Below, in pieces: positions 1-59,956 of a stretch of DNA of 64,000 nt. The translations under genes and the position numbers were made by a program. The notes below the pieces were generated by a model that saw only the letters and a list, made by a program, of their open reading frames with translations, had not been told where the DNA came from and made no database searches. The stretch spans positions 248,001 through 312,000 of the forward strand of contig BGKB01000017.1 of the NCBI GenBank assembly GCA_003116975.1, written 5' to 3'. The DNA comes from Aurantiochytrium sp. KH105. Lineage: Eukaryota > Sar > Bigyra > Thraustochytrida > Thraustochytriidae. Every line of letters starts with the position of its first letter. Within the stretch, counting starts at the first letter, position 1.

Positions 1-1592
1 GTCGGCGCATGCAGCTTGATCGAGTTGAGCCAAAAGGAAAGGTACTCCACGGCTTGGTCTTGCTTGATGAGGAGTTCCTGCATGTCAAAGACGACCATAT
101 AGACGCCACCCTCTCGCGTGAGGAAAATGTGGTGTAGCGCGTAAAAGACGTCCTGGCCCGCATAGTCCCAGATCGTAAAGATGATCTTCTGGCCCGACTG
201 CGTCTTGCCGGCCATGTTCCTGATCTCTGCAATGTCGAATCGTCGCGCCACCTCGGCCTCGGGCACCAGTTCCACCTGTACCTCTGCCGCGAAAGGCCGC
301 GCGGAAGAAATACGTAGGCGTCCAAAGACGACATTTGAAATGCCTTGGAGGACGCGCCTGAGCAGCGATCGCCTCTTCGTGCTTCTGGGTTGCTCCTCTT
401 GCACGGCCATGCGCAGCGCCGCCACGCGGTACGCCTGGCGTTCAAACCCGCTGTCGAATTCCTCTTCCCGCCACATCTCAGCATCGGTGCGCTTGAGCTC
501 GACGCCCACCGTCGAGATGTGCTCCGCCACGGGTGGTATGCCCAGCAGCGAGCGCACCACGGACGTCTTGCCGGCGGCGCCCTGGCCGACGACCATGAGC
601 TTGCAGCGGCCCAGCTCCGCGGGGTCCCCGTTCGCCAGCGCCGCCTTGAGCGCCTCCTCCTCCGCCGCAGTCGTCGCGGGGCCGCCGAGCACGTCCTCAA
701 TGGGCCGCACGGCCTCCGTGCCGTCCAGCACGCGCGTCGAGGCGCCCGTCTCCGCGTCCCAGATGCGCACGCTGTTGTCGAAAGATCCACTCACGATCTC
801 CGACCCCAAGAGAGAGACCGACCACACCCTGTTCGAGTGTCCTTGCAAGACGTGCAGCGCGTCTCCGCTGCGCGCGTCCCAGAGTCTGACCGTCTTGTCC
901 CGGGACCCGCTCACGAGGCGCTCTCCCTCGAGCGCGACAGAGGTCACCCCGGTGGTGTGTCCTTCAAGGACGCGGACGAGCTCGAAGGAAGGCACGGCGT
1001 AGAGCCTCACCTTGCTGTCGTAGGACCCGCTCACCGTGCGCTGCGCGTCGATCGCGACCGCGTAGACCTCGCCTGTCGCCTCTGTGAGGACGTGGCGTGG
1101 GCCGCCGCTGGCACGGTCGAAGATGCGCACGGTCTTGTCTTTCAACCCGGCCACGAGCAGGTTCTCGTGGGCGGCAACGCTCAAGACCCACGCCCCGGCG
1201 TCGATCTTCAAGGTCTCTCGGCCGCTGATCTTGTCCCAGACGCGGACGGTCTGGTCGCCTGACCCGCCGCCGGAGATGATCTCGTTGCCGTCGAAGATGA
1301 CACTCAAGACATCGCCGGTGTGGCCCTGGAGGGCGTGCAGGACGGAGGCGGTGGCCAGGTCGATCAGGAAGAGGCCGCCGTAGTCAGTCCCCACGGCGGC
1401 GAGGTTGCCCTGCATGGCCACTGTCCTGGCTGCCTTGTTGTTGGGCGTCTTCATCTCCAAGACGAGGGCGCCGTCCTTCTTGCTCCATGCTCGTAAGTAC
1501 GCGTCCTGGCTGGCGGCCAGCACGAGGTCGGCGGACTGCGCGACGCCGTTCACCCAGCCTTGGATGCGGCCGCCGCCATGGATGCGGCCCAT
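1..1592 (-). CDS. WD40-ROC (Roco-type) GTPase, 3' end outside window
   Basis: Roco-family signalling protein: a WD40 propeller fused to a Ras-of-complex GTPase. The open frame runs off the left edge, so 530 residues are visible and the C-terminus is missing. Residues 10-300 hold seven WD40 blades whose blade ends read like DKTVRIFDR, DKTVRLWDA and DNSVRIWDA. A linker follows, then a P-loop GQGAAGKTS (residues 336-344, Lys342) and a DxxGQ switch in WDYAGQDVFYALHHIFLT from Trp475. The same switch block occurs in the TIR-ROC-COR-TIR gene at 42-45 kb, and the WD40 half is closely matched by the gene at 28.9-29.8 kb. The start (MGRIHGG) was chosen because that paralogue begins MGRIQHW at the equivalent place. 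In Roco proteins a COR dimerisation domain normally follows ROC; whether one follows here cannot be seen. Substrate and partners are unknown; a TIR or kinase C-terminus outside the window is possible. Confidence 0.85.
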   Translation of the reverse strand, partial: MGRIHGGGRIQGWVNGVAQSADLVLAASQDAYLRAWSKKDGALVLEMKTPNNKAARTVAMQGNLAAVGTDYGGLFLIDLATASVLHALQGHTGDVLSVIFDGNEIISGGGSGDQTVRVWDKISGRETLKIDAGAWVLSVAAHENLLVAGLKDKTVRIFDRASGGPRHVLTEATGEVYAVAIDAQRTVSGSYDSKVRLYAVPSFELVRVLEGHTTGVTSVALEGERLVSGSRDKTVRLWDARSGDALHVLQGHSNRVWSVSLLGSEIVSGSFDNSVRIWDAETGASTRVLDGTEAVRPIEDVLGGPATTAAEEEALKAALANGDPAELGRCKLMVVGQGAAGKTSVVRSLLGIPPVAEHISTVGVELKRTDAEMWREEEFDSGFERQAYRVAALRMAVQEEQPRSTKRRSLLRRVLQGISNVVFGRLRISSARPFAAEVQVELVPEAEVARRFDIAEIRNMAGKTQSGQKIIFTIWDYAGQDVFYALHHIFLTREGGVYMVVFDMQELLIKQDQAVEYLSFWLNSIKLHAP

Positions 1593-2978
1593 GGCGGCGG
1601 CGGCGAGTGCGGCGAGGCGAGCGAGGGCGGGCGGGCGGGCAGGCAAGCGACGCGAAGAAGCGAGCAGGTTGGGCGGAGAGGGGGCAAGAAAGCAGAGAGA
1701 GAGAGAGAGACTCGGGCGAGGGGAGGGAAAGAAGGGCGCGAGGGGAGAACCTGGCTGCTAATGCGACGCGGCCTTGGCGCGTTCTCCGCGGGGGGCGCGC
1801 GCGGACGGAGCGTGTCGCGGCGGCGGCCGCGCGGAGAAAGAGGGGACGGGAGGGGGAGGGGAGGGGGGGTTGCTGGTTTGCGCCTTGCGCGCCTGCCTGC
1901 CTACCACGCGGTCGCGCCGCGGGCGCGAGGGCGAGAGCGAAAGGTGTTTGTGCAAAAAAAAATTGCCAGCGCGTGCCATGCACACGGCTGCACACCCGGC
2001 TTTCCTTTCCTTTTCCGTGCACGATATTGAACAGCTCGTTAGCAGAGTGAGCAAGCCTCGGAAAGCTGCGCGGAGCGAAGGGAGGGAGGGAGGACGTAGT
2101 ATACTATAACATAATGGGATGAGGCGAATAGCGAGAGCGCGGACCACAACCTCATCTCTCGAAGTGCCTCCATTCCTTAAAATTTAGCTGGTTCGCACTC
2201 ACAAATGACAGAAAATTGGACCACACCAGGAAAGAGAAGAAGGACGAGCAGGTTTACCACAAATTCTTCTTTGCTAAAAAATTCTGCCACTTCACGACAT
2301 GAACGTTGCACAAACGGTTGTAGTAGTGCTAAGAGTCGGCCGACTCAAAGACGAATGCATCTTGGTCATCGATCAGATCGTCGACCTTGTGTTCGGTGGA
2401 CTCAAGCGGCGACGTTGATGTCGTGTCTTCAACGCACAGAATTTCAAGCGTCTCGACATTGGGCTATCTATCTCACAAATGGCGTTGCGCACCGGAGAGC
2501 GAGGAATGCGGAAGCATCCTTTTTTTTTCTAATATTTTTCTCAAGAGCGCCAAAAAACGAAGATTTGACAGATCCGAAAATCCGCACTTGCGTTTCGGCT
2601 TGGTCTCCAGAGCGCGAATCTGATTTTTTCGAGCCACGAAACTTCGTAGACGGAAATTATCGCGTGCGTGGTCCGCGCGAGAGGCTGACACTGGGCGCTA
2701 GTAAGGGCCGGATAGTGGCAGGTCGCAATGGGGGACAGGTGCAAGTGCCATGTGTCTCTTTGCGGAGAATGCAACCTGTGCTCACGCTGTCAGCGTGAGT
2801 GCACGCACAACAAGCTAACCACCGCCCAGCGAGTTGCACGAACCCGAGGTCGCCCTTGAAAAGAGCAAAGACCGGCGCGTGAGGAAAGGAGAAAACGAAG
2901 AGTGCCACGCGTCTGCTTTCCCGTGCTCGAGACACCGCTAAGGTTTCTCTGTCCCAAGACGAACAGCAAACGAAAAGA
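1593..2978. other. Spacer upstream of the WD40-ROC gene
   Basis: No gene recognised. The first 550 bases are extremely G/C-rich and purine-biased on the + strand, with GA runs near 1690-1720 and G runs near 1850-1870. This probably covers the promoter and leader of the minus-strand WD40-ROC gene. From about 2150 the composition becomes AT-richer, with only short broken frames. Confidence 0.5.
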
Positions 2979-7573: not shown

Positions 7574-8029
7574 TGGCGAAGCCAGACCCAAACTTTTCGG
7601 TTCTAGGACCCCCTTTTACCCGTTTAAAATTAGGAGTTTATCCGTTTCCTGCACTTTATTTCGTTGTTGCGTAGTTGCGTGTCCTACGGAAAAGGATGCA
7701 CCTTGTGGCATCAAAAGAACAAAATGACGCGACCCTGGATGTCTCCCGATTTTTTTTTACCTTCTCCCGCAATTGTAAAGGCACATCACGAACGCTTGAC
7801 GACCGGAAGCCACAATCTCGCAGTGTATGTCAAGCTTCGTCCAACGCATGTCAGAGCAAAAGACATGTTAGGCCTCAGCCATCCTCTGCGTGATTTACTT
7901 CTCTTTTGAGGTAAAGATAAAGCACCACGTCCTCTGCGTGAAGTATTCCTGCTTTGAAAAGAAAGGCAAAGCACCTTGTCCTCCTCTGCGTCAACCTATT
8001 GATTTGGTGCAATAAGCTCAACGCCTACC
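7574..8029. other. Convergent 3' spacer with small tandem repeat
   Basis: Lies between the ends of the RING and ZNG1-like genes. It presumably holds both 3' UTRs, plus a degenerate direct repeat at 7883-7992. No gene seen. Confidence 0.5.
7883..7992. repeat. Degenerate tandem repeat, unit about 50 bp
   Basis: CCTCTGCGTGA recurs at about 7883 and 7931 and as CCTCTGCGTCA at 7983. Each of the first two is followed about 30 bases later by AAAGCACC. Two and a part diverged copies. Confidence 0.6.
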
Positions 8030-9430
8030 TCACGCTTTGTCCTTGGCGTCGTCATCGGATCCGAAAATGTCTTGCATTTCCGTGTCGCTCAAAAGACAGG
8101 CGTCCAAGGCAGCCTCGATGGCCTCGACGTCCAAATCAAGACCAATGAGAACAATCTCCTGCCTACGGTCGCCAAATGTACCCTCAAAGTCGTGTCGGAC
8201 ATTGGCGGGCATGTTGTCGGACGGCCATTCTTCGCGAGGGATGGCGGCCCACCAAGCGCCAATGGGAACGAGCGTCGCCTGCAGGCCTGCGCGAGAATAG
8301 TACAAGGCCATATCGTGCTGATTAGCGAGCCAGCAATATCCTTTTGCGCGCAAAATGGGATCGGCGAGACACGCCGGTCGTGCAGAAATCATTGCGCGGG
8401 CGAATTTTTGAGGCTCAAAGGGTCTTCTACGTCTATACACGTGCGTCTTGACGAGAACATCCGGGGCTTCTGCGGTCTCGGAGCGGCGCAGACGATCAAA
8501 GGCCTCAAGAAAGGTCCGATGCTCCTCATCGACACTGAGCGCTGCATTTGATGAAGATGTGGCGACGTTTGGAGCTGGCATGGAAGGTTCTGGGCCCAAG
8601 AGCATGCCCAGAGCGACGTCTCCACGTACGGTCTCGTATAGCCTCGCACTCGGGTTGATATGAGCGAGGATTGCGCGCAAGCGTGGTAGTTTAGAAGGGC
8701 CAACAAGGTCTGTCTTGTTGAGAAGTAAAACGTCTGCACTTTCAATTTGCTCCGCAAGAAGGTCACAGGTGAAGCGCGCAGCGTCGGATTTCGACCATGG
8801 GTTGTCGGGAGCTTCTGCTGCCACCTTGGATCCAAGCTTGCCAAAGAGGCTCTCGAGCTCCGAGGCATCGACGAGCGTCACCAGCCGCGAGAGCCGCGCC
8901 TTGGCATCGGTGCCCTCCTCTTGCAGGGCGACTTGGAGACCGTGCCAAAGTCGTTTTGGCTCAGCCACGCCTGAGCACTCGACAACAATGTGGTCGAAAG
9001 GCCCAACTTGGAGAAGTTGGTCAAGTGAACGATATAAATCGTCGCTGGCGGAGCAGCACGCGCAGCCGTTTTGCAGCTGCACAGTTTCAATGCCATCCTC
9101 GCCTTGTGTCCTGCGCTGGACTTCGCGAGCATCAATGTTCACAGAGGCAACGTCATTGACAATGACACCCATGCGCAGTCCTCCACGGTTGGCCAGCATG
9201 TGATGTAACAGCGTGCTCTTGCCTGCTCCCAGCATTCCCGAGAGCACGGTCACCTCAATGCGCTCAGTGCGCTGTCGCTTATTATTGGTCTTGGCTTTGG
9301 GCATCGGAGCTTCGAATTTCGTCGTCCTTTTCCTAGCATCCTCAGGCTTGTGCTCCGTTTCCTCCTCTTCTTTCTCCACCGCGAGACCTTGCGCGAGGAG
9401 GACCTCGGCGGCAGCCTCGAGGTCGTCCAT
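8030..9430 (-). CDS. ZNG1: COG0523/CobW-family GTPase (ZNG1-like zinc metallochaperone)
   Basis: Protein of 466 residues. P-loop GMLGAGKST (about 66-73); the family metal-binding motif CxCC as GCACCS (Cys123, Cys125, Cys126); VVECSGVAEP; TLVDASELE; and the guanine-specificity motif NKTD. A C-terminal CobW_C-like half follows (VLVKTHVYRRRRPFEPQKF), ending in an acidic DIFGSDDDAKD tail. Eukaryotic members (ZNG1/CBWD) transfer zinc to client enzymes such as methionine aminopeptidase at the cost of GTP. The start MDDLEAAAEV was preferred over an in-frame upstream TTG-led extension, because that extension is promoter-like and basic. The N-terminal 55 residues are acidic then Lys-rich and probably disordered. 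It is divergent from the HDAC gene across a 1-kb GC-rich spacer. Confidence 0.9.
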   Translation of the reverse strand: MDDLEAAAEVLLAQGLAVEKEEEETEHKPEDARKRTTKFEAPMPKAKTNNKRQRTERIEVTVLSGMLGAGKSTLLHHMLANRGGLRMGVIVNDVASVNIDAREVQRRTQGEDGIETVQLQNGCACCSASDDLYRSLDQLLQVGPFDHIVVECSGVAEPKRLWHGLQVALQEEGTDAKARLSRLVTLVDASELESLFGKLGSKVAAEAPDNPWSKSDAARFTCDLLAEQIESADVLLLNKTDLVGPSKLPRLRAILAHINPSARLYETVRGDVALGMLLGPEPSMPAPNVATSSSNAALSVDEEHRTFLEAFDRLRRSETAEAPDVLVKTHVYRRRRPFEPQKFARAMISARPACLADPILRAKGYCWLANQHDMALYYSRAGLQATLVPIGAWWAAIPREEWPSDNMPANVRHDFEGTFGDRRQEIVLIGLDLDVEAIEAALDACLLSDTEMQDIFGSDDDAKDKA

Positions 9431-27887: not shown

Positions 27888-28390
27888 TCAACGAGCTAAA
27901 CGGCCCTGATGCGCTTGATAAACTCCTTGTGAAAAGCCTCTGCCAAATACAAGCGACGCTGGAAAGGCAAAGACTCTTTCTCGTCGGAAAGTCACTTGGC
28001 CCATGCCGAAGCAGCGGCAATATTTTTGTAGAAAGGGGCAAATCCGATGCGGCTTGAATCGCTCTCGTGCACGACCAGAATAGGTTTCTCCTCGTGTAGG
28101 TAGTGCCGTTTCCAGCTTCGTTTTCACGGTGCCCTCAAACACCGTCTTAAAAGCATATGGCACTTGAATTCGCGGATGCCTTGCTTCGTTGCATCCTCTG
28201 CGAGGTTCCCCTCGGTCTCTTGTTCGACCCAAACCTTGAGTCCACGGTTGCAAAGCTTTTCCGCCTTGAGGTTGCAAGCGTCGCCCGCGTCAACTTGACG
28301 ATGACTCAGAAAAACGTGGTATTCAAGCCCAGCAGCGAGCGGAGTGTTCGCCTCTTTCACGCTTCCCGTGTCCTTTTCATCTTCGGTCAA
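27888..28390 (-). pseudogene. TIR-domain gene relic
   Basis: On the minus strand an opening segment reads YHVFLSHRQ, AGDACNLKAEKLCNRGLKV. Further along, and in another frame, KPILVVHESD, GFAPFYKNI and FQRRLYLAEAFHKEFIKRIR appear. These correspond in order to the first TIR domain of the TIR-ROC-COR-TIR protein at 42-45 kb (AGDACNLMAEKLFNRG, KPIILVHESD, FQRRPYLSEPFYDELIRRIR). The reading frame is not continuous and no ROC-like sequence follows, so this is a decayed copy of the N-terminal TIR half. It lies downstream of the WD40 gene at 28.9-29.8 kb on the same strand. An alternative is a living gene with unusual introns, which I consider less likely. Confidence 0.75.
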
Positions 28391-28876: not shown

Positions 28877-29842
28877 TTACAAAATTGAACAGAATGGGCG
28901 CGACTCTGCCGGATTCTCATTTGCCCGTCCCGTCTTCACATCCGTTTCCGCTTCCGTTGCAAATATTTCTGAAATGGGCATCTCGGCCTCTGTGCCATCG
29001 AGTACGCGCGTCGAGGCGCCCGTCTCCGCTTCCCAGACGCGCACGCTCTGATCCCAGGATCCGCTCACGATCTCTGGCCCTACGAGAGAGACCGAGAGCA
29101 CAGTGTCGGCGTGTCCTTGCAAGACATGCAGCAGGTCTCCGCTGCGCGCGTCCCAAACTCTGATCGTGTTGTCGTCAGAACCGCTCACGATGCGATCTTT
29201 GTAGAGCGCGACTGAGCGCACCGAGTAGTTGTGTCCTTCGAGCATGTGGACAAGCTTGAAGGAAGGCACGGCATAGACTCTCACCTTGCAGTCCCAGGAC
29301 CCACTCACCATGTGCTGCGCATCGATCGCGACTGCGGTGACTTCGTTCGTCGCATCCGTGAGGACGTGGCGTGGGTCGCCGCTAGCCCGGTCGAAGACGC
29401 GCACGGTGTTGTCTTTCAACCCGGCCACAAGCAAGTCCTCGTGAATTGCAACGCCGTAAACCCTCTGCCCGACGTCGATCCTCGATCTCATTTGGCCGCT
29501 AACCGTGTCCCAGGCACAGATGGTCTCGTCATACGATCCAGAAATAATATCGTTTCCGTCGAAAACGACGCTGTAGACACCGCCAGTGTGGCCTTCTAGA
29601 GCGTGAAGAACGGAGACGGTGGCCAGGTCAATGAGGAAGAGGCCGCCGCCATCAGTTCCCAATACGGCCAGCTTGCCCTGCACGGCCACTGCGTTGGCCG
29701 CCTTGTTGTTGGGCGTCTTCATCTCCAGGACCAAGACGCCGTCCTTCTTTCTCCACACGCGCAAGAAGCCGTCAACGCTGGCGGCCAGCACGAGGTCAGC
29801 GGACTGCGCCACGCCGCGCACCCAATGTTGGATGCGGCCCAT
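28877..29842 (-). CDS. Seven-bladed WD40 protein with CaaX-like C-terminus, paralogue of the WD40-ROC gene
   Basis: Protein of 321 residues that is nearly all WD40 propeller, with seven blades (blade ends include DETICAWDT, DNTVRVFDR, DNTIRVWDA and DQSVRVWEA). It matches the WD40 half of the gene at 1-1592 closely throughout, from MGRIQHW to ASTRVLDGTEA. It stops just where that paralogue enters its GTPase. Its tail RANENPAESRPFCSIL resembles the paralogue's linker (LANGDPAELGRCKLM) but terminates in CSIL, a plausible CaaX box; the last Leu would favour geranylgeranylation. It may therefore be a stand-alone, membrane-tethered scaffold, or a truncated Roco gene still open. The start was set by homology with the paralogue; the frame continues upstream without need. 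It is divergent from DPH1. Confidence 0.85.
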   Translation of the reverse strand: MGRIQHWVRGVAQSADLVLAASVDGFLRVWRKKDGVLVLEMKTPNNKAANAVAVQGKLAVLGTDGGGLFLIDLATVSVLHALEGHTGGVYSVVFDGNDIISGSYDETICAWDTVSGQMRSRIDVGQRVYGVAIHEDLLVAGLKDNTVRVFDRASGDPRHVLTDATNEVTAVAIDAQHMVSGSWDCKVRVYAVPSFKLVHMLEGHNYSVRSVALYKDRIVSGSDDNTIRVWDARSGDLLHVLQGHADTVLSVSLVGPEIVSGSWDQSVRVWEAETGASTRVLDGTEAEMPISEIFATEAETDVKTGRANENPAESRPFCSIL

Positions 29843-30179
29843 GGCGACGGTACGTGGGGCTACGAAACGACGAGAAGACACAGGTATAGGTAGCGGAGGA
29901 GCTGTTTGCGTCTTGCGCTCCTCCAGGCCTGCCGCGCGATCGCGCGATCGCGCGAAGGCGAGATCGAAGATGGATTGGGGTTTGGCCAGAGGCCCAGCAC
30001 GTGTCCCGGGCTGGTACATCCGCAATCCTCACATAGTTCTCAAGGTTCCAAAGGAGGCAAAGCAGCAACACGAGTGGTGGCCCGTGTGGATGGCAAGCAC
30101 AGCGCAGGGCAGACGAAGACTCGCCTTCGGTGGTCTCGACGCAGAGGCCGCACCTGGGCAGCCGTCGCGAGCATCGGGG
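29843..30179. other. Bidirectional promoter between WD40-CaaX and DPH1
   Basis: 337-bp divergent spacer centred on a perfect GATCGCGC palindrome at 29933-29954. Alternative in-frame DPH1 starts exist here at 29970 and 30090. Confidence 0.55.
29933..29954. promoter_or_regulatory. 22-bp perfect palindrome of tandem CGCGATCG
   Basis: CGCGCGATCGCGCGATCGCG with two more bases is its own reverse complement. It sits near the middle of a divergent spacer, so it could be a shared factor-binding site. Function is inferred. Confidence 0.4.
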
Positions 30180-42183: not shown

Positions 42184-45100
42184 TCAGGATCTCTTGAAAA
42201 AGGGCAAGCTGAACTTCCTTGAGGGTGGAGGAAAGCACCGCCGCAGAAGTAGATTGTAGAAGACTTCCTCGTACGCATATTTATGTTGAATTGCGAGGCT
42301 CTCCTTCTCATTGAACATATTCAGCCAAAAGTGTTCGTCCTCCGATTCATACTTTTTGAAACCTTCGATGTACTCGTGGAAGTCTGCGTAGCTTGTCAAA
42401 TTCGTCTGCGACTCGTGCACGAGAACAATTTTCTTTTTGAGCTTTCTAGCATGGCTAAGCTCTTCGTACACCGCGTTGCTCGTAAAAATGTCCCTGGTGA
42501 GAATGAGAAGGTACACCTTAGCAAACCTCACTCCAGTCAACATCGCTTCCTGATTGAGCTCCCCAGTGTAGCTTCGATCCAGCCAGACAGTGACACCGCG
42601 ATTCTTCAACTTTTCCGCGATTAAGCCTGCCAAATGGGCTCCAGTTCGTTGGTAGTGGCTCAAGAAAATGTGGTGCCTCTCGTTCTTGCGCAGCTTCGGT
42701 ATACTATACTGACGCACATTTGAACCATCCTTGTCGCGATCAAGAGGTCCAACACTATCGTCAAAGAATGCCTTGAACTCTTCGCGGCTTACTTTCACTC
42801 TTTCGCCATTTTCGTCAGCCCAGACACTTTGCCCATCTCGGCGCGAATCCCAAGTTCCGTCCTCAGAAACAAGACTGTTGTATGGAACCAGTGCGCCCGA
42901 TTCAGTGCCGACGAGTATGAGGCTGTAGGTGAGATTTTTGAAGAGCGTCTCAAGCTGAAGACGGAACATTGAAATCAACACCTTGAGCACGTGAGCCTTT
43001 CGCTCCGCATCATTGCGAACAAGGATGAATAATTTGTCGGCCTCGGCACGCAGGTAAAACGGGTCAAAACCGAAGGATAAAAGCGCTGATGCATTTCCAA
43101 CCACAGGTTCAAAAGAGTCCTCGATCCCTGCTGCGTGTTCGGCGCTTTGGGCCGCCAATCGATGATAAATTCCATTCGGCAAGAATGAAGACGAGAAGTC
43201 GAGTACGCACGTCAACCCGATATCTGCAGGTGGGACTTCGGGCCCGTCACGAGTGTCAGTGAGAAGGCCAGTGATCAGGTAATATTCCTCGTCCGACACG
43301 CTATGGAACTTCCATGGGCAGAGAAGTAGATTCTTCTGCATGAAGGCTATCAAGAACTCCACCTCAACAGAAGTCCACACAGAAGTATCCTCCCCTGTAG
43401 ACCAAAGACATTCGAGAAGGGAACGTGAGGCAATTGCACGCTCGCGCAAAGATACATACGCGTCTGATAAGCCTGCAACGTTGACCGGGGAGTTTAAATC
43501 CCAAAGCATACGGTTCGCACAAATTTCGTTTGTAATGACCCCGCTCAGCTTATCCAGGAGCCACTGCGGGTCAGTCACTACTATCCGTGAGAGCTCAGTA
43601 GTACCTTCCAGAAACACGACGACGCCTAGCTGGTGAAAGTACCTCAGCATGTTCATCGTTTCGCTTTGAGACATACTATAACGCTTTGTCATACCTACGA
43701 TGTCCCGGAGAAAATAGTACTTCTTTTCACTTGAAAGAAAGTCCTCGTGCACTTTAAGCCAAGCCAAAGGGACCTTCTGCTTGACGACAGCATCCTTTGC
43801 TGCTTCTTTTGCGATGGCAGAGCGCAAGTCCTCGGCCCGATCAGGATCTGATGAACTGTTGTCGATGGCGAAAAAAATACAATCTTCAGAGGCAAACTTG
43901 ATTTGGCTGCGAGCGCCAGAAAGGCGCCCCGTCAGCGAGTCTTTCAGTGATGAGCTTAGAAATGAAAGATCCGAATCGTCCTCAACCTGATCACGGTGAG
44001 TTCCAACGAGAATAATTGGAGCTTTGGGTGCATGCAAGTGGATGCTGTTCAGCCAAAAGCATAGAAGCTCGTATGATTCGTCGTGTTCCAATCCCCCATG
44101 AAACTCGGCAGCGAGTTGGCGAATGTTGAAAACTACCAAGTACACACCAGACTCAGTTAGGAAGATGTGATGGAGAGCGTAAAAAACCTCTTGTCCACCA
44201 TAGTCCCAGATGGTGAAGCTCAAATCGCTATCAGCATCCTCCCGAAGCTTAGTCTCCTGACCTTTGGTGAGATCGATACGACGCGCAACCTCCTCATCGT
44301 CCAGTAGAGGACCACTGTGATAAATCTCGTCCTCTGCCACATCTGCCTTGTAATTCCTGTTTTTGAACCGCATTCTAACGAGCTCCTGGCTAGCTGCTTT
44401 CCGCCATTGCCGGTCAAATGCGCCTTTGTCATCTTGTAGAGCTGTCCAGTCACTCGCATGCGTTCGTATCACATCAGCTACCTCCGTCGTGAGATGGTCT
44501 TCAATGTATGGCTCCCCTAAGATGGATCGCAGCGTCGAAGTTTTACCAGATGCGCCTTGACCCACAATCATGATTTTTGCACGCTCCCATGCTAGCGTGC
44601 GCCCTTCGCGGGCTGCGACTTCAAGGGCTTCGCGAAACTCAGCCGAATCTGGTTCTTTACTATATTCTCTTATACGACGAATAAGCTCATCGTAGAACGG
44701 CTCCGATAGGTACGGTCTTCGTTGGAAGACAATTGATTCAGTCACGTCAAAGAGACCTCGCGCGAAGTCCGGTGCTGTCTCGATATAGTGGGAGAAATTG
44801 GCGAAACCGGGTCTATTAGGATCCGATTCGTGTACGAGAATGATCGGCTTTCCCTGATCCAAAGCCACCTCCAATTCCTTTTTTACAAAATCAGATGCGA
44901 ACACCGATTTTGTCAGGAAAAGGAGAAAAGTCTTGGAGTGCGAAATCATCTGATTCATAGTTCTTTCTGACAAGTTTCCTGCAACCGAGTGATCCAGGCT
45001 CATCACCTTAATGCCTCTATTGAAGAGCTTTTCAGCCATTAAATTGCACGCATCTCCCGCTTCACTTAGCTGAAAGCAAATGAAAACGTCCGCATCCTCA

Positions 45101-45228
45101 ATTCTTTGTCCCTGGACGCCGGACATGATCTTGCTACTCGCACCTCGCAATTCCACACAGACTGCACGCGATTCGGGTTTGCGGCGCCTTTCCAAGTTTT
45201 GGTGGCGACGCGGTGCAAATCTTACCAT
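42184..45228 (-). CDS. TIR-ROC-COR-TIR protein (Roco GTPase flanked by two TIR domains)
   Basis: Single-exon protein of 1014 residues. TIR-1 at about 45-190: DVFICFQ, AGDACNLMAEKLFNRGIKV, SKTFLLFLTKS, then VKKELEVAL with a Glu (118) at the place of the NAD-cleaving residue of SARM1-type TIRs. ROC at about 215-460: P-loop GQGASGKTS (223-231), switch WDYGGQEVFYALHHIFLT (from 341), base-recognition GTHRDQV (409-415). COR at about 485-760: PLAWLKVHEDF, YFHQLGVVVFLEG, VVTDPQWLLDKLSGVI. TIR-2 at about 850-996: HHIFLSHYQ, AEKLKNRGVTVWLD, VYEELSHARKLKKKIVLVHES (Glu922/923). Roco proteins are GTP-regulated dimers; TIR domains signal by assembly or by NAD cleavage. The combination suggests a receptor-like immune or stress switch, by inference. 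The ATG at 45228 lies inside a tandem duplication; MSGVQG at 45126 is an alternative start. Confidence 0.9.
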   Translation of the reverse strand: MVRFAPRRHQNLERRRKPESRAVCVELRGASSKIMSGVQGQRIEDADVFICFQLSEAGDACNLMAEKLFNRGIKVMSLDHSVAGNLSERTMNQMISHSKTFLLFLTKSVFASDFVKKELEVALDQGKPIILVHESDPNRPGFANFSHYIETAPDFARGLFDVTESIVFQRRPYLSEPFYDELIRRIREYSKEPDSAEFREALEVAAREGRTLAWERAKIMIVGQGASGKTSTLRSILGEPYIEDHLTTEVADVIRTHASDWTALQDDKGAFDRQWRKAASQELVRMRFKNRNYKADVAEDEIYHSGPLLDDEEVARRIDLTKGQETKLREDADSDLSFTIWDYGGQEVFYALHHIFLTESGVYLVVFNIRQLAAEFHGGLEHDESYELLCFWLNSIHLHAPKAPIILVGTHRDQVEDDSDLSFLSSSLKDSLTGRLSGARSQIKFASEDCIFFAIDNSSSDPDRAEDLRSAIAKEAAKDAVVKQKVPLAWLKVHEDFLSSEKKYYFLRDIVGMTKRYSMSQSETMNMLRYFHQLGVVVFLEGTTELSRIVVTDPQWLLDKLSGVITNEICANRMLWDLNSPVNVAGLSDAYVSLRERAIASRSLLECLWSTGEDTSVWTSVEVEFLIAFMQKNLLLCPWKFHSVSDEEYYLITGLLTDTRDGPEVPPADIGLTCVLDFSSSFLPNGIYHRLAAQSAEHAAGIEDSFEPVVGNASALLSFGFDPFYLRAEADKLFILVRNDAERKAHVLKVLISMFRLQLETLFKNLTYSLILVGTESGALVPYNSLVSEDGTWDSRRDGQSVWADENGERVKVSREEFKAFFDDSVGPLDRDKDGSNVRQYSIPKLRKNERHHIFLSHYQRTGAHLAGLIAEKLKNRGVTVWLDRSYTGELNQEAMLTGVRFAKVYLLILTRDIFTSNAVYEELSHARKLKKKIVLVHESQTNLTSYADFHEYIEGFKKYESEDEHFWLNMFNEKESLAIQHKYAYEEVFYNLLLRRCFPPPSRKFSLPFFKRS

Positions 45229-45295
45229 TTCGAGTAGTTCTCAGTACGGACGCGACGCGGTGCAAGTCTTACCATTTCGAGTAGTTCTCAGTACG
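45205..45295. repeat. 47-bp-period tandem duplication at the start of the TIR-ROC-COR-TIR gene
   Basis: The 44 bases at 45205-45248 recur at 45252-45295 with one mismatch (A/G). Each copy contains, on the minus strand, AAATGGTAAGA, so the presumed start codon and a GTAAG donor-like word are present twice. Confidence 0.9.
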
Positions 45296-52070: not shown

Positions 52071-52426
52071 CCGCGCAGAGAAAGGGCCCGCGCGGAGAGC
52101 GAACGACACAGGGAGAGGGGCCGGAGCGCCAGCGCGTGCCGCGAGCAGTTTTTGGGGTAAAACACCAACAACTACATTTGGAGCGAGGCTTCCTTTGGAG
52201 GTGGAGACTTCGCTTGGCGAGGCGAGGTGAAGCGAGGTGTCGTGCGCGCAGCGCGGCGCGGCGCGGCGAGGAAGGCCAGCGCAGACGCTGGAGCTCCTGA
52301 CCGTCAGTCTGTCCGTCTGTCAGTCTGTCAGACAGACTCTCTGTCGGTAAAGTGCAGATAGGGTAAGGTGAAGAATCACCTGCACACGGCGGAAACACAC
52401 CGACAAAAGAAGCAAAGGAAAGCACG

Positions 52427-55400
52427 ATGCTTTCCAAGCTACGCAAGACCGGCGCCGCAGCGCGGAAACGCAGAAGCATCGGATCGCAAGCATCGGAAAA
52501 GTCCCGAGGAATGGACCCCAAACAGCTCGCCAAACTCGAACACACCTTCGAAAGCCAAGGCGACGATGACTCGACAGACGATGCGAACGTGAAAAGCTTT
52601 GTCAGCACCATGTCGCAGCCGCTCACACAGGGCGAAGTCGCCTTCCTCTGCAAGTCGGCACGACTCTACGTACAAAGGTACGCCAACGACGAAGGTCCGC
52701 GCGTCAATGCTCGGCAGGGCGTCGTCCTCTTTGTTGACATTAGCGGATTCACGCGCATGGGCATCACGCTGCGGGACAAACTCAGCCCCGTCACCGCCGT
52801 CGAGCGCTTCTCACGGAACGCAGTCGACATCATCACATCGTGGACGAAGATCGTCGAGCGCTACGGAGGCGACGTCGTCAAATACGCTGGCGATGCCCTT
52901 CTGTGCACCTGGCTCGTCCCCTCTGCCGAGGATCGCAGAGCCGCCGAGTACGCGCGGTCCAAAGCGCAGCGCTTCGCCGAATCAGAAGGCCGCGCCGCGA
53001 GCCTTCAGAGCGACCCGGAGCAAGCCGCAACCTTGGAACAGCTCATGCGGCTCGCCAATCGCGCGGCCCTCGACATGCTCAAGCACCCGCAAAACGAAGA
53101 TCTCAAAATTACCTTGCACGGAGGCATTGGCGTGGGCACCTTGCAAAACATTTTCCTTTGCGACGGCACTGGCAGTCTCCGGTGGAATCTCGTCACCGGT
53201 CAGGCCGTCAATGACGCCTCTGCGCTCATGGAAATCTCTGCACGCGGCGAAGTCTCCGTCGCCAACGACGCTGCCTTTGCAGAAAACGGCGAGTGCTGGA
53301 CTATTACTGCTCAATCCGTGCACTCAAAGGACGTCATGCACTTTGCGCAAAGCCCAGAGGACTACTCGAGCCTTCGTCCGCAGTCTTTTATGCCAATCTT
53401 CTTTGGCGCCTCCCCCGTCGCCCCGCCAAGCCTCCCCATGCGCCCCCGCGGCACCCGGGCGCGTCACATTCCCAAGGAAATCAACGCCACACTGGCCCAT
53501 AACCGTGCCGTCGCGGTCTCGGCTGCGGTCGCTGCCGCCGTGCAGCGAGGACCCAGCCTGAACCCGCGCGCCGTGCGCGCCTTCATTCCGCTGGCCCTCA
53601 GAGGTCGCATCAATCGCTACGCCTTCCAAGGAGGCGAGCTCCGCTGGTGTGCCACCATGTTTGTTTCCATTCCAGATGTCAAGGTTGGCCCCGAGCAGGA
53701 CGAGGTGGGAGACCTCGTCGGTCTCCACAATTTCAACGACATCTTCCTCAACGTGTCTCGTCTCATTCATAACTCGAACGGCGAGGTGCGTGATCTCTTG
53801 TATGACGACAAGGGCGTTGTCTTTATTGCCGTCTTTGGCGCCTACCGCCGTCTGGAAAACAGCGAGCTCTGGCTCATGCGCGCAGCTCGAGCAATTCGCC
53901 GCCAAATTCCCAAGTGCGCAATTGGGGCCGCCGCCGGCCTGTGCTTCGCCGGTCTTTGCGGATCAAACCGTCGACACGACTTTATGGTCATGGGCAGCTC
54001 AGTCAACGAGGCTGCCCGCCTCATGGGAGGGGCGGTCGGCCGGAGCAGCGAGACCGAAGGTTGCATCATCGTTGATGATAAAATCCATGATAGCACGGAC
54101 CGCTATTACGTCTACGAAACCTGCGTCGTGCACAAAGAAAAGGCGACCTACACGGAAAAATTTGTGGGCAATATTCTCAGAAAAAGGCGCCACAACACGC
54201 GTCGCGGAACCTTGACCGACATGCCTCACTCAACGCAGGTCGGTCGCTCGGTGTGCGAAGGCCTTATTCAGAACTTTGTCGAAATCAACTCGGATTCCTT
54301 GGCGCTCATGACCATTGAAGGCGGACCGGGACTAGGCAAGACAACAATGGCCAACTGGATGCGGAAAACGTTGCAATACCCGCTTCTCTTCACCCATGCC
54401 AACGCCGGGACCATGGACGAGCCTTTTGCTGCCTTGCGTCGCCTTGTTGAGCGGGCCCTCGAAATCAATCGAGACATGGAAAACTCTGGCGATCTCTTCG
54501 CACGCCTCGACGAGATTGAAGCCGACTTTGATATATCCAGAGAGCGACTCGCTTTCCTTCTCCCCTTTGTTGCACGAGCGATCGGGGTAGAGGACGAAGC
54601 GGACGCTGCCGAAGGCGACGCGACCGCCGCCGCCAACAACGCCAAGGCGAAGCCCAGGGGCACGCTGCGGCGCACGTCGAGTTGGGCAAGCTTCTCAAGT
54701 CTTCAGAGCAACAACAATATTGATATGGAGGACCTGCATCGCGTTTACGAGCTCTTGCTGGATGTATTTCGCATCATGCGAGGCGAGGAAAAGACCCTGC
54801 TCGTCATCATCGAGGACGCCGTATGGCTCGACCCGGCCTCACGGCGTCTCCTCCTGGAAATGTGCGAGCGCAAGGACGAGACCGGCAGCCTGGTTCTGGC
54901 CATGACCTTTCGCTCGGACTCTGATGCGGACAAAGTCTCTGGCGAGTGGCAGGCCTGTGTCGCTGAAATGTGCAAGGCTGTGGGCAAACAGACCAAGATC
55001 AAACTCGAACCGTTTTCGCGCGATGCGACACGGGCGCTTATCACGCAGATCCTTGAACAGCGCGGCCTGGAACCCAGCATCGGGCCCTTGCGGCGCGCCT
55101 CGGTCTTCATGATGAAGTCTAATTCCCCCTCCACGAGCAAAATCTTTAGCATTCACGACGACGTCGCCGATTTGGTGTACCGCAAGACCGAGGGCAACCC
55201 AGGTGCCATTGTGGAGAAAACAAACATGCTTTTTGACAAGGCTTGTGTGATGTTGAACAAAAATCGTGAGGTCGTCTTTAGCTCTGAAAAGAAGCGCGAA
55301 CTCGCGGAGCAGAGCTCGGCCCAATCTGTACTGGAGCTCTTTCTCGATCGCTTTGATCAGCTCGATGAGGAGGAACAGGCGGTTATCAAGGTCGCGGCCT

Positions 55401-55771
55401 GCATTGGAATGGCGCAAGGTCATTCGGATGCCATTCAATTTGATTCCAAGGTTGTGCGCCGAATTTTCGAAGTAGAGGCTCGCAGCAATCCTCGACGCGC
55501 GCTCGGAAGGCAGCAAATCGAACTCATTCTTACGGAGCTTGCAAAAAAGGGATTTTTGCAGCACAAGGAAGAAGCAAGATCGCGCAAGTCGAAGCGACGA
55601 ATGTGGGAATTCGTATCGCCTTCAGCTCTGCGAGCCGTCTTGGATATCGTTCCTCATGACCGTCGTCGTAAAATCCAGATGCTTGTCGAAAAGAATGAGC
55701 GCACGACATACCCTTACGAGCCAATTCCGTACGACCCCATTGAACGCCTCGATGCAGCTGGTATTTCCTAG
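52427..55771 (+). CDS. Soluble adenylyl cyclase-like protein: two class III cyclase domains plus NTPase
   Basis: Protein of 1114 residues resembling ADCY10 (soluble, bicarbonate-responsive adenylyl cyclase). C1 at about 95-285: VVLFVDISGFTRMG with the first metal Asp near 104, then GGDVVKYAGDALLCTW with the second. C2 at about 400-560: RWCATMFVSIPDV and GLCFAGLCGSNRRHDFMVMGSSVNEAARLMG, the usual sAC second-half motif. An AAA/STAND-type ATPase follows with Walker A GGPGLGKTT (about 632-640) and a Walker B-like LLVIIEDAVWLD near 790. The tail is helical. Human sAC is about 1600 residues, so the C-terminal part is shorter here. No membrane segment is seen. Predicted reaction: ATP to cAMP; guanylyl activity cannot be excluded. 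Convergent with a class C GPCR. Confidence 0.9.
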   Translation: MLSKLRKTGAAARKRRSIGSQASEKSRGMDPKQLAKLEHTFESQGDDDSTDDANVKSFVSTMSQPLTQGEVAFLCKSARLYVQRYANDEGPRVNARQGVVLFVDISGFTRMGITLRDKLSPVTAVERFSRNAVDIITSWTKIVERYGGDVVKYAGDALLCTWLVPSAEDRRAAEYARSKAQRFAESEGRAASLQSDPEQAATLEQLMRLANRAALDMLKHPQNEDLKITLHGGIGVGTLQNIFLCDGTGSLRWNLVTGQAVNDASALMEISARGEVSVANDAAFAENGECWTITAQSVHSKDVMHFAQSPEDYSSLRPQSFMPIFFGASPVAPPSLPMRPRGTRARHIPKEINATLAHNRAVAVSAAVAAAVQRGPSLNPRAVRAFIPLALRGRINRYAFQGGELRWCATMFVSIPDVKVGPEQDEVGDLVGLHNFNDIFLNVSRLIHNSNGEVRDLLYDDKGVVFIAVFGAYRRLENSELWLMRAARAIRRQIPKCAIGAAAGLCFAGLCGSNRRHDFMVMGSSVNEAARLMGGAVGRSSETEGCIIVDDKIHDSTDRYYVYETCVVHKEKATYTEKFVGNILRKRRHNTRRGTLTDMPHSTQVGRSVCEGLIQNFVEINSDSLALMTIEGGPGLGKTTMANWMRKTLQYPLLFTHANAGTMDEPFAALRRLVERALEINRDMENSGDLFARLDEIEADFDISRERLAFLLPFVARAIGVEDEADAAEGDATAAANNAKAKPRGTLRRTSSWASFSSLQSNNNIDMEDLHRVYELLLDVFRIMRGEEKTLLVIIEDAVWLDPASRRLLLEMCERKDETGSLVLAMTFRSDSDADKVSGEWQACVAEMCKAVGKQTKIKLEPFSRDATRALITQILEQRGLEPSIGPLRRASVFMMKSNSPSTSKIFSIHDDVADLVYRKTEGNPGAIVEKTNMLFDKACVMLNKNREVVFSSEKKRELAEQSSAQSVLELFLDRFDQLDEEEQAVIKVAACIGMAQGHSDAIQFDSKVVRRIFEVEARSNPRRALGRQQIELILTELAKKGFLQHKEEARSRKSKRRMWEFVSPSALRAVLDIVPHDRRRKIQMLVEKNERTTYPYEPIPYDPIERLDAAGIS

Positions 55772-56046: not shown

Positions 56047-58944
56047 TTAGGCAAGGTCCATGCTGAGGCTCTTCGACAGCTCGGCCTCATTCCCCACACT
56101 TGCAGCAGCGACGCGGGCGCCAGAGGCACTCGCGTTCTTGGGATCACGTTTCTTGTCCCCTTCGTCATCTTCATCGTCCTCGTCCTCGTCGTCGCCATCA
56201 TTCTCCTCGACGGAAAGACCCGTGTCTCCTCCCGTCGTCATTGGGCCTTCTCCCGGGAGGGTAGCGGCGCGCGAGCGTGACTTTTTCGTTGCTGGTGGAA
56301 GCGCGGTGAGATCGTCCATGGTTCGCATATCCTGCGTGATATCGCCCGTCAAGTTGGTCATGTCGCCCGTCTGTGTACCTGTGCGTGGCGCCGTCGTGGC
56401 TCCCGGAGCCGACGTCTGCCGGGACCCGCTGCCAATCTTTTTCTTCACCGCACGAGACACGCTCGCGAACTCGGGGGCCGTCACAAAGTATACCTTGGGG
56501 CCGATCACGAGCAAGATGAGAATCAACGAGGTGAAGACCAGCGTTGAAGAAATGAGAAAGGTCTGCGACTTGACCTCAAGCGGCAGTCCCGCAACGAGAA
56601 TCATTGTCAGGAAAATGATCATCGTCGTGACGTAGCTCGCCATCATGATACTGCGACTCTCCATGTACTTAGCATCACTGTTGCGACCCTGGTACGAAAG
56701 AAAAGTAGTGTAAAGCAAAATCAAGACCACATAGACGACCCCAAGGACGGGAAAAACAATGTACTCGTTGTGGCTATCTGCGTTGCTCCCTCCAAAGTAA
56801 ACGCACACATTGGCGCTAAAGGTCACATGCAGGCCTGTAATCTGGTACAGGTGCACATTTGCATTTGTCAGCGACGCCTCCATGGCTTGCGGTGCGTCCA
56901 CCGCGAACCACACAATCAGCAGTAATGTCATGCCGAACATGATGCCCATCAAAATTTTGAACATGAAGAAGGCCGAGATGGAGATGCGACGCATTGTCGA
57001 GTTGTTCCAAATCCGCCAGATACGGTATACCTTGACTGTGAGCGATCCGACCAAGAGCGTGAGACTTAGCGCCAAGTTGGCAATACGAGTACGGCATTTG
57101 TTGGTTTGATTTGGTCCGAGGAACGACATGGCAGCCACGTTGCACCAAATGCCCGCAAAGCACATGAGCACCAGGAACTCGCGCTGCCCCGCCTTCATGG
57201 CCACGCTAGAGTAGTGACGGAGGACAACAAAGAGAAAGATGTAGCAAATGATGGCGCCGATGCTCGAAAGCGAAATTAGAATCCGGCCTGTCAGAGACTT
57301 GTACGGCACGTACGGACATTGCAGAGAACCTTCTGTAGGGAGTTCGATTTGGGCAAACGTGTTGTCGCAAGCGCATGGCTCGTTCGGGTCAGGGCATTGT
57401 CTCCCTTCGCGGTCTGCCCAAAAATAGATGACCTCACGAGAGTCGTCTTCGCAAGAGGTTGCTACCGCTTGCACAAAGTCAACCATGGTGCAGTTGCTTA
57501 GTTCTGCGCCAAAAATGAGCGAAGATGTGAGCTCGCCCGTTTTTTCAGCGGGCGGGTAGAGGTTTCGCACGCTCAGCTCAACGTTTGTCTCATCCTCATC
57601 AAGAATTGTGATGTCAGCCTGTACGAGAGTCATCTCATACTCGGCTTGGCCATTTGCATTAAACTTGATGGTACCACCGGGAATGATGCTGTTTGTAAAG
57701 GAGGTTTTCTGCATGTAGCTTCGAACAGACTTTGTTGACGCCGAGTTCGCATTCTCCAGACTTTGCACGAGAACGCGTGCCGACTCGTACGCGAGTGCTG
57801 CGTACCATTCGACTGCGAGCTGGTTTTCGGGCAGCGTGAACATGGTGGTCGAAGCTGCGCCGCCGCTTATCGAGCTGGCGTCCTCCTCGAAAGCCTCGTC
57901 TGCCCAGGCGTACGCTTCGAAGAGTCTCCATCGCTGGGCCCAGTTGCGCGAGATTTCAGGCTTTTGGGACACGCTCCACCACAAAGCCGCAACGAGATCT
58001 TGCACGAAAGCTGGGTGTGCGAGCTCATGGATGTCCTCGATGTCCACGCCTCTCGCCCCGAATGTTGCAAAATCAAACTTGACGTTCGTTTTGGAAAAGG
58101 TGTCGAGCAGCATGCGGAACTCGGTCGAGTGGGCGTCTGCCATGAGGGCGTGGCAGCGCGAAGAATCCCGAGTCGTGTTGCGGGCAATCTCCATATCCGT
58201 TTCAAGGTGCTGAAAGACGTCCTCGTCCGTGGTGTCGATCGGGTATGGAAAATTGGTCGCGTAGTATAAGTGAAAGTAGTCTGGATACAAAAGGGTGTAC
58301 CGCGATACCTCTTCGCGAAAAGCATCACCGTGCGTCCCGTTTTCCCACACGAGAGCAATATCACACGGCTTGGCGAGGACACCATTGTCCATCGAGGTCT
58401 TCATGAATTCAAGGACAGTGTCCGTGAGGAACTCGACTGGAGATAGCAGGCCAAACGCCCATTTGCCGTCATTCTTTCCGTATTGTGGATTTTCCGAGCT
58501 CGTTTCGTACATGGCCGCAGTTGCGCCGCCGCCGTTCACATAGGGTACGTTGTGCTTATTGGCAACTTCGATTTGGGTTGCGATACGGGTGGAGCTGTAT
58601 CCGCCGAGCACAAAGACGTCGTCATCCCACTTGAGGATCTCCGTCAAGTTTCCATCCAGATTTGCAGCTCCTTTCTCTGCATCCGATTCGCTGTCAACGA
58701 GGACCAGCCGGGTGCTGTCCAGAGACAATGTCTCTCCATCCCAGTTTACCTCGTGACCAACCTCGTCAAAGTACATTGCGTATCCGTGCTTGTAGTATGA
58801 CCCAATGTGGCTCGCTGACCCTGTCAGCGGCAGGACCTGCACAATGTGCAAGGCTTCCGATTGAGGCGCTTGGCTCGACACCAGGAGCAGGGCCAGAGCC
58901 GCCATGGCCATTTTAGGGCCTACCTTGCATGCTTGCGCAGCCAT
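56047..58944 (-). CDS. Class C (GABA-B/glutamate-like) G protein-coupled receptor
   Basis: Receptor of 965 residues. A signal peptide (about 1-31, MAMAALALLLVSS) is followed by a periplasmic-binding-protein-like ligand domain to about 480 (HIVQVLPLTGSASHIGSYYKHGYAMYF, DVFVLGGYSSTRIATQIEVANKHNVPYV). The latter contains the Ser/Thr-rich patch that in ANF-receptor domains contacts ligand. Seven hydrophobic helices lie at about 552-825, beginning LTGRILISLSSIGAIICYIF. A typical class C third loop and VGSLTVKVYRIWRI are seen. No nine-cysteine domain separates the halves, although a short Cys-bearing segment (about 520-545) is present; this is GABA-B-like. The cytoplasmic tail is Thr/Ser-rich then very acidic. 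Ligand unknown. The gene is 275 bp from the sAC-like gene, tail to tail. Confidence 0.9.
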   Translation of the reverse strand: MAAQACKVGPKMAMAALALLLVSSQAPQSEALHIVQVLPLTGSASHIGSYYKHGYAMYFDEVGHEVNWDGETLSLDSTRLVLVDSESDAEKGAANLDGNLTEILKWDDDVFVLGGYSSTRIATQIEVANKHNVPYVNGGGATAAMYETSSENPQYGKNDGKWAFGLLSPVEFLTDTVLEFMKTSMDNGVLAKPCDIALVWENGTHGDAFREEVSRYTLLYPDYFHLYYATNFPYPIDTTDEDVFQHLETDMEIARNTTRDSSRCHALMADAHSTEFRMLLDTFSKTNVKFDFATFGARGVDIEDIHELAHPAFVQDLVAALWWSVSQKPEISRNWAQRWRLFEAYAWADEAFEEDASSISGGAASTTMFTLPENQLAVEWYAALAYESARVLVQSLENANSASTKSVRSYMQKTSFTNSIIPGGTIKFNANGQAEYEMTLVQADITILDEDETNVELSVRNLYPPAEKTGELTSSLIFGAELSNCTMVDFVQAVATSCEDDSREVIYFWADREGRQCPDPNEPCACDNTFAQIELPTEGSLQCPYVPYKSLTGRILISLSSIGAIICYIFLFVVLRHYSSVAMKAGQREFLVLMCFAGIWCNVAAMSFLGPNQTNKCRTRIANLALSLTLLVGSLTVKVYRIWRIWNNSTMRRISISAFFMFKILMGIMFGMTLLLIVWFAVDAPQAMEASLTNANVHLYQITGLHVTFSANVCVYFGGSNADSHNEYIVFPVLGVVYVVLILLYTTFLSYQGRNSDAKYMESRSIMMASYVTTMIIFLTMILVAGLPLEVKSQTFLISSTLVFTSLILILLVIGPKVYFVTAPEFASVSRAVKKKIGSGSRQTSAPGATTAPRTGTQTGDMTNLTGDITQDMRTMDDLTALPPATKKSRSRAATLPGEGPMTTGGDTGLSVEENDGDDEDEDDEDDEGDKKRDPKNASASGARVAAASVGNEAELSKSLSMDLA

Positions 58945-59956
58945 TTTCGCACCTTATCCAAACTGAACCTGCGCGGTGCCTCCTTTTGCCGCCAGTCACA
59001 GACAGGCCTTGGCGTGATCCCTTTTTGCTGCAAGTTCATCACGTCTTCGTCAGCGCACGCGATTCGGCACGAGACAGAGTCCACTGTCGCTCTTAGCCTC
59101 CGTGTTGTATCCATCTGTCTTTGGCGGCCAGTCGCTTGCTGCTTTTTCTCGCAGTGCTGGCCCAAAGGCGGACCATCTCAAGGCGAGGCGCATTTTCTCA
59201 GTGTTTTTATTGCGCCACCTTTTCACGTGGTGCCAACTCGAAGCGACCTGACTCGAGCAAGCACAGCGATCCAATACGCCCGCAATGCACCTGCTGCTGC
59301 CGCTGCCGCCGCTGCTGCTGCCTGCGCCGCCTTCCATTTCTTCGTTCCGCAATCGACTGCCGGGGCGCAGTCGCGCTTCTTCGACCTTCCTAGCTCGATC
59401 GATCGCAGCGATGGGCCCAGTCAGAGTCTGTGGTGGGCAGAAAAGAAGAGTCCCAAGTTGCCAAACTTGGGACAACGCCCGGTCCCGACTCCCGGCCGCC
59501 ACAAGCGGCCTCGGCGCTTTTGGCCGCTCCAGACGACCACAGCGCCGGCAAGCAAGCGACGCCGACACTGGCTGTGGCGGGCGAGTCCTTGCTGCTCGCT
59601 GCCTCCTCTTTCTCCCCCTCCTCGAATCGACAGTCTGCGCTTCGCTTTAGGCTGGATGTTCATTTTGGATTGAGCTGTGTGGCAAGGGAGGGCCAAATTC
59701 GGGGTATGCATGAACGGATGACGAACGTGTAAGTGAATGCAAAGGGATGCATCATAAGTCCGAGTGTTCCACTTGCCAGCCCGACCTTTTATTCGTTCGT
59801 TAAACTCGAGCTATACCTTTGCTGGAGTTTTTATGGGCGAGGCGGGCGGAAAAAACCAGAGGGAGGGCGGTCGGTCGGTCGGTTGCTTGGTCGGGTCAGC
59901 CCGACCCTGCAAAGGATCTGCGCGGATGAGCCCTCGGCATCCCATTTCGTGCTGGA

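Follow-up and report, generated by a model that had tools for sequence, protein, structure and literature searches.

Background

Roco proteins are GTPases in which a Roc domain is followed by a COR domain, and some of them also carry a TIR domain. In the literature drawn on here, which was mostly open access and is represented by titles, the beginnings of abstracts and excerpts, bacterial leucine-rich repeat (LRR)-AP-GTPase-COR proteins are reported to end in at least 24 kinds of C-terminal domain, TIR included, and are predicted to be conflict systems (PMC8195603). For eukaryotes, a TPR-ROCO-TIR protein has been reported from Chondrus crispus, ROCOs with an N-terminal TIR are mentioned without being named, and up to four ROCOs each are given for diatoms, oomycetes and Schizochytrium aggregatum (PMC11378527), while the legend of a Trichoplax ROCO figure lists TIR (PMC4104024). 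A 2019 review sorted Rocos into three groups by topology, with TIR unnamed in the excerpts concerned, and described the mechanism of these GTPases as still debated (PMC6337361). Here we describe a 1014-residue protein with a TIR-homologous region at each end of a Roc-COR core, encoded in a stretch of 64,000 nucleotides (hereafter the window; all coordinates refer to it) from the thraustochytrid Aurantiochytrium sp. KH105 (assembly GCA_003116975.1, contig BGKB01000017.1, positions 248,001 to 312,000).

A double-TIR Roco was not described in the literature searched, and the same search found no report of thraustochytrid TIR domains or of TIR NADases from protists or stramenopiles; papers on two TIR domains together with a GTPase concerned, by their titles, plant immunity only. 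A preliminary description of the window had called the layout unusual, and in that literature it is, although its rarity among eukaryotes is unproven. It had also raised the possibility of a previously undescribed immune or cell-death switch: the double TIR was indeed not met with, but TIR-bearing Rocos in predicted conflict systems had already been published (PMC8195603).

Results

One open frame with a TIR-homologous region at each end

The frame lies on the minus strand (42184..45228) and runs from ATG to stop through 1014 codons without an internal stop, encoding in order TIR1, Roc, COR-A, a weakly recognisable COR-B and TIR2. The uninterrupted TIR-ROC-COR-TIR frame of the preliminary description was thus borne out, with Pfam placing TIR_2 twice, Roc and COR-A in the order claimed and all above curated cut-offs. 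GC content by codon position, computed for this frame only, was lowest at position 2 in all six segments, as is usual in coding DNA. The frame is real, intact and makes sense as a protein; two genes or an artefact were rejected on its being open throughout and on each end matching TIR on its own. Its start is uncertain, as is a possible 5' intron, because the first ATG sits in a 47-bp tandem repeat (45205..45295; 1.9 copies, 97% matches) and in a splice donor-like context (ATG-GTAAGA). A stop in the same frame stands just upstream, the open stretch starting at 45240, and Met35, directly ahead of TIR1, is a possible alternative start. Both copies of the repeat carry ATGGTAAG, a splice-donor-like string.

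The two terminal modules, both on the minus strand, comprise a TIR_2 core at residues 48-149 with an extension to about residue 190 (TIR1, 44659..45087) and a core at residues 854-957 with an extension to about residue 998 (TIR2, 42235..42669). Pfam TIR_2 matched the whole protein in two stretches (2.2e-20), and the modules cut out and scanned alone scored 39.3 and 41.7 bits, respectively, where the cut-off is 28. The two share 35% identity over 145 columns, the extension behind the Pfam core included. Our own TIR profile included both TIRs of this protein among its seeds, so that its scores on them, unlike those of Pfam, are not independent; compositional look-alikes were rejected with this profile, which matched none of 1000 shuffled sequences (500 per TIR region) at E<=10. 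Against the PDB, the two-TIR profile found C. elegans TIR-1 (1.4e-7) and next SARM1 (0.003) with the catalytic-position Glu aligned; in pairwise BLAST, TIR1 aligned with TIR-1 at 30% identity over 93 columns, and TIR2 gave no alignment with it.

An AlphaFold (AF2) model of TIR1 (residues 35-203, from a six-row alignment) reached a predicted local distance difference test (pLDDT) of 79.5 and a predicted TM score (pTM) of 0.77. Its best Foldseek match in the PDB was SARM1 (7cm7, E 3.3e-8, TM 0.65 by query length), and the 50 matches listed included plant, MyD88 and bacterial TIRs, among them MyD88 TIR fibres (8yym, E 2.2e-6). The fold check that accompanied the preliminary description was therefore passed for TIR1. 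A single-sequence model of the 1014-residue chain was useless (pLDDT 34). Both ends are thus homologous to TIR domains by sequence profile, and the fold is further modelled for TIR1.

The Glu announced for the SARM1-type catalytic segment of both TIRs was located at Glu118 in TIR1 (44875..44877, minus strand) and Glu923 in TIR2 (42460..42462, minus strand) by alignment. This column, one of three that are invariant across the six TIRs compared, presumably corresponds to SARM1 E642, with which the title of 7cm7 (E642A, NAD+-bound) is consistent. The catalytic pocket is kept in part: the Glu is present in both domains, but the Trp that precedes it in SARM1 and TIR-1 is replaced by Phe114 in TIR1 and Ala919 in TIR2.

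The Roc-COR core

Between the TIR domains, on the minus strand, Pfam recognised a Roc GTPase at about residues 213-435 (limits approximate; 43924..44592, 3.9e-17) and COR-A at residues 487-571 (43516..43770, 2.4e-10, above the cut-off). The GTPase motifs that had been read in the sequence are all in place, namely the P-loop GQGASGKT (residues 223-230, 44539..44562), the switch II string WDYGGQE (residues 341-347, 44188..44208) and a G4-like THRD (residues 410-413, 43990..44001). The COR assignment is firm for COR-A and less so for COR-B. Pfam COR-B was absent from the whole-protein scan at E<=1 and from a scan of residues 557-843 alone at E<=0.1, and a diverged COR-B at about residues 619-788 (42865..43374) was recognised only with our own profile of 92 bacterial Roco open reading frames (ORFs; E 4.3e-5, against E 4.4 for the best of 300 shuffles). 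Roc with its motifs and a COR behind it, COR-B by the bacterial profile only, place the protein among the Rocos, and PDB matches of the core were the C. tepidum Roco (2.4e-14) and LRRK2 (about 1e-12). With a longer bacterial Roc-COR profile, residues 211-253 and 325-788 aligned as separate stretches, and therefore a long insert lies between the P-loop and switch II.

Relatives and neighbouring genes in the window

A second Roco gene, with WD40 repeats followed by Roc, is cut by the window start (3..1757, minus strand; Pfam WD40 4.6e-33, Roc 3e-15). Its Roc shares 38% identity over 209 columns (3e-34) with that of the 1014-residue protein, and both have the insert that separates the P-loop from switch II and contains an EVARR(I/F)D motif, so that the two genes are paralogues. 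The C-terminus of the WD40-Roc gene, beyond the window start, may hold COR and TIR. A WD40 paralogue of this gene (28877..30025, minus strand; 71% identity over 295 residues, 28961-29839) ends ahead of any Roc, and 3' of it lies a broken third TIR, TIR3 (27905..28378, minus strand), which is identical to TIR1 at 60 of 140 positions (43%, 8e-24), contains two in-frame stops and lacks a matching catalytic segment in the alignment to TIR1. Searches of the whole window found no Roc between the two (tblastn at E<=0.01, profile at E<=1). The simplest inference from the sequence is that the WD40 frame and TIR3 represent a gene of the WD40-Roc-COR-TIR kind that has decayed and is missing its middle part, while two separate adjacent genes fit as well.

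TIR1, TIR2 and TIR3 are related to one another. In a tree of 22 rows and 117 columns, drawn with midpoint rooting and without other protists, the three grouped with SARM1 and TIR-1 apart from bacterial Roco TIRs (support 98/95), and TIR1 and TIR3 were sisters at 94/88, just missing the tool's mark of 95/80. Inheritance of TIR2 together with Roc-COR from a bacterial Roco-TIR was set aside on the 98/95 separation, as a lean and not a proof. We lean, on the same sequences, towards TIR1 and TIR2 having arisen by duplication within this lineage, and no further, because the tree does not fix the order of TIR2, TIR1 plus TIR3 and the animal TIRs.

The other neighbour frames scanned with Pfam have domains of eukaryotic type (histone deacetylase, FYVE, 7tm_3 receptor, nucleotide cyclase). 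A 1134-residue frame (52367-55768, plus strand) has one Pfam Guanylate_cyc match just above the cut-off, a second cyclase-like region by eye only and an AAA_16 match under the cut-off. A 968-residue frame (56050-58953, minus strand) combines a Peripla_BP_6 ectodomain with 7tm_3 by Pfam, which we take to be the layout of GABA-B-type receptors. Neither an Rfam family at gathering score nor a tRNA was found in the window, and PADLOC called no system, its matches being of TIR type (best 3.9e-8) apart from one to DrmC at 0.014.

Comparison with bacterial, phage, plasmid and viral sequences

The genome comparison covered bacteria, archaea, phages, plasmids and viral contigs, eukaryotic Rocos being taken from the literature only. 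A Roc-motif scan of bacterial and archaeal genomes yielded 44 loci from 158 candidate stretches. COR-A above the cut-off was found in 14 of 296, 3 of 247, 3 of 247, 9 of 251 and 8 of 299 genomes in five phylum draws, and in all 13 genomes or records from which earlier loci had come, where 30 of 66 places were taken as loci at first and some others later. The Roco ORFs pooled from these three sources and one plasmid locus, a non-random sample, numbered 141, of which 125 were distinct after removal of duplicates and 103 of the 125 had at least 150 residues ahead of Roc. By our own profile, a C-terminal TIR was present in 12 of the 125 and an N-terminal TIR in none, so the statement that single-TIR Rocos are known holds for bacterial LRR-Roc-COR-TIR proteins.

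The one of the 12 that was scanned with Pfam, L079, proved to be an LRR-Roc-CORA-CORB-TIR_2 protein. Not counted among the 12 were TIR matches in ORFs that failed to score as Roco (L019 8254-8679, L044, L045, L086/L094 and L088), some of which may be broken Roco ends. At L019, a bacterial Roco (5119-7782) has an LRR-like front by eye and a C-terminal TIR by our own profile, and the small separate TIR-like ORF (8254-8679) follows closely. The best bacterial Roc-COR BLAST matches of the 1014-residue protein had 22-25% identity and were not mainly TIR-bearing; among the 15 matches listed, L079 stood seventh and was the sole member of the TIR-bearing 12.

The plasmid scan gave one match, a Roco on the Nostoc plasmid NZ_CP117771.1 (L001 518-5049). 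It is annotated as SAV_2336 N-terminal domain-related protein, its gene comes immediately behind that of a MoxR family ATPase, and the plasmid is typed as conjugative; a Roco adjoining a MoxR ATPase fits the cyanobacterial ternary conflict systems (PMC7159879). No match was found in phages, and no confirmed relative in viral contigs queried with the 1014-residue protein, the TIR pair, a bacterial TIR, a TIR-1 fragment and a DNA pattern.

Discussion

We consider the TIR-Roco most likely, at about an even chance, to be a GTP-controlled switch whose output is contact between TIR domains with cleavage of NAD+. Roc-COR would dimerise and change shape with the bound nucleotide, and this change would make or break contact of TIR1 with TIR2, inside a single chain or between the partners of a dimer, of the kind on which TIR NADases depend; NAD+ would then be cleaved, or a TIR scaffold assembled, in a response of defence or self-destruction. 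NADase activity of the two TIRs is plausible from their sequences. TIR NADases require at least two TIRs in proximity (PMC9153377), and dimers of the C. tepidum Roco predominate in the nucleotide-free and GDP-bound states, whereas with GTP it is monomeric (PMC5714945). From these two properties three forms of contact suggest themselves: the TIRs might be kept together in the GDP-bound state, TIR1 might pair with TIR2 within one chain, or the domains might meet only after a GTP-driven opening, and the sequence favours none of them. There is reason to doubt the preliminary description's idea that GTP would control a gathering of four TIRs in a dimer, since the monomeric state of the C. tepidum Roco on GTP opposes a GTP-assembled TIR cluster.

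Several other points weigh against this switch. The loss of the Trp ahead of the Glu means that activity may be lacking in one TIR or in both, and some TIRs are scaffolds in which NAD+ hydrolysis is not detectable (PMC9153377); COR-B is badly diverged, the branching order around TIR2 is left loose by the tree, and the GTP switch, NAD+ cleavage and immune role are proposed from sequence and by analogy. The same substitution and the existence of such TIRs, together with the MyD88 fibres among the fold matches of TIR1, would suit a scaffold rather than an enzyme, in which TIRs short of full catalysis make homotypic contacts as in MyD88 and Mal and recruit TIR proteins under Roc control. We regard this as a less likely possibility, however, given that the catalytic-position Glu occurs in both TIRs and is invariant in all six compared, and that the entries closest by profile and by fold, TIR-1 and SARM1, carry the name of NAD+ hydrolase in the PDB.

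The difference between the pockets, with Phe ahead of the Glu in one and Ala in the other, and the divergence of the two domains to 35% identity might also point to a self-contained, self-inhibited pair, with TIR1 catalytic and TIR2 completing or blocking its site in cis; the full-chain model was of no help here, and we think the arrangement unlikely. It is very unlikely, in our view, that the double TIR arose as a recent or short-lived fusion, without special function, through ordinary domain shuffling in the local WD40/Roc/TIR family. The broken TIR3, its place beside TIR1 in the tree, the WD40 paralogue that has no Roc and the tandem repeat across the start would all be expected from such shuffling, but no stop breaks the 1014-codon frame, its GTPase motifs are in place, and both TIRs have stayed open although 65% of their positions differ.

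If the protein is the GTP-controlled switch that we prefer, it is more likely to be an executor or amplifier than a sensor, because it is without LRR, WD40 or other sensor repeats (no N-terminal LRR or other repeat was found among eight Pfam families at E<=1), and a candidate for its partner is encoded in the window, the WD40-Roc paralogue. By analogy with plant sensor/executor NLR pairs, which use ATP, one might imagine a paired NLR-like protist system in which WD40-Roc-COR sensors, one of them in the window and perhaps TIR-ended, form mixed dimers through Roc-COR with the sensorless TIR-Roc-COR-TIR executor, the GTP cycle timing NAD+ cutting by TIR1 and TIR2; we hold this to be quite improbable.

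In this eukaryotic protein a GTPase switch of the LRRK2 type stands between two immune-type TIR domains, and LRRK2, of the same GTPase class, has been linked to inflammatory pathways (PMC6337361). As a compact natural Roco whose two ends carry one type of output domain, it could make the link between nucleotide state and output measurable by a straightforward assay of NAD+. The eukaryotes known to combine Roco with TIR would also gain one more member; among the literature found, this combination is best described in bacterial conflict systems.

Compared with known systems, the protein resembles bacterial LRR-Roc-COR-TIR proteins in its C-terminal TIR after Roc-COR, while these, L079 and the published ones alike, have LRRs ahead of Roc where it has a TIR (PMC8195603), and the bacterial Roco TIRs fall apart from TIR1, TIR2 and TIR3 in the tree. 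The Chondrus crispus TPR-ROCO-TIR, known to us by its description, is likewise eukaryotic with a C-terminal TIR but differs by its TPR front and single TIR. The ROCOs with an N-terminal TIR and those of Trichoplax, also compared by description, again join TIR to ROC-COR in eukaryotes, with one TIR according to the excerpts. SARM1 and TIR-1, to which the TIR pair and the TIR1 model came closest in the PDB, have the same catalytic-position Glu, but they have no GTPase, keep Trp ahead of the Glu and are regulated through ARM repeats in an octamer (PMC9153377). The C. tepidum Roco and LRRK2 possess the same Roc-COR core, joined to LRRs and, in LRRK2, a kinase rather than to TIRs (PMC6337361). The double-TIR Roco is thus best viewed as a variant close to the known single-TIR Rocos.

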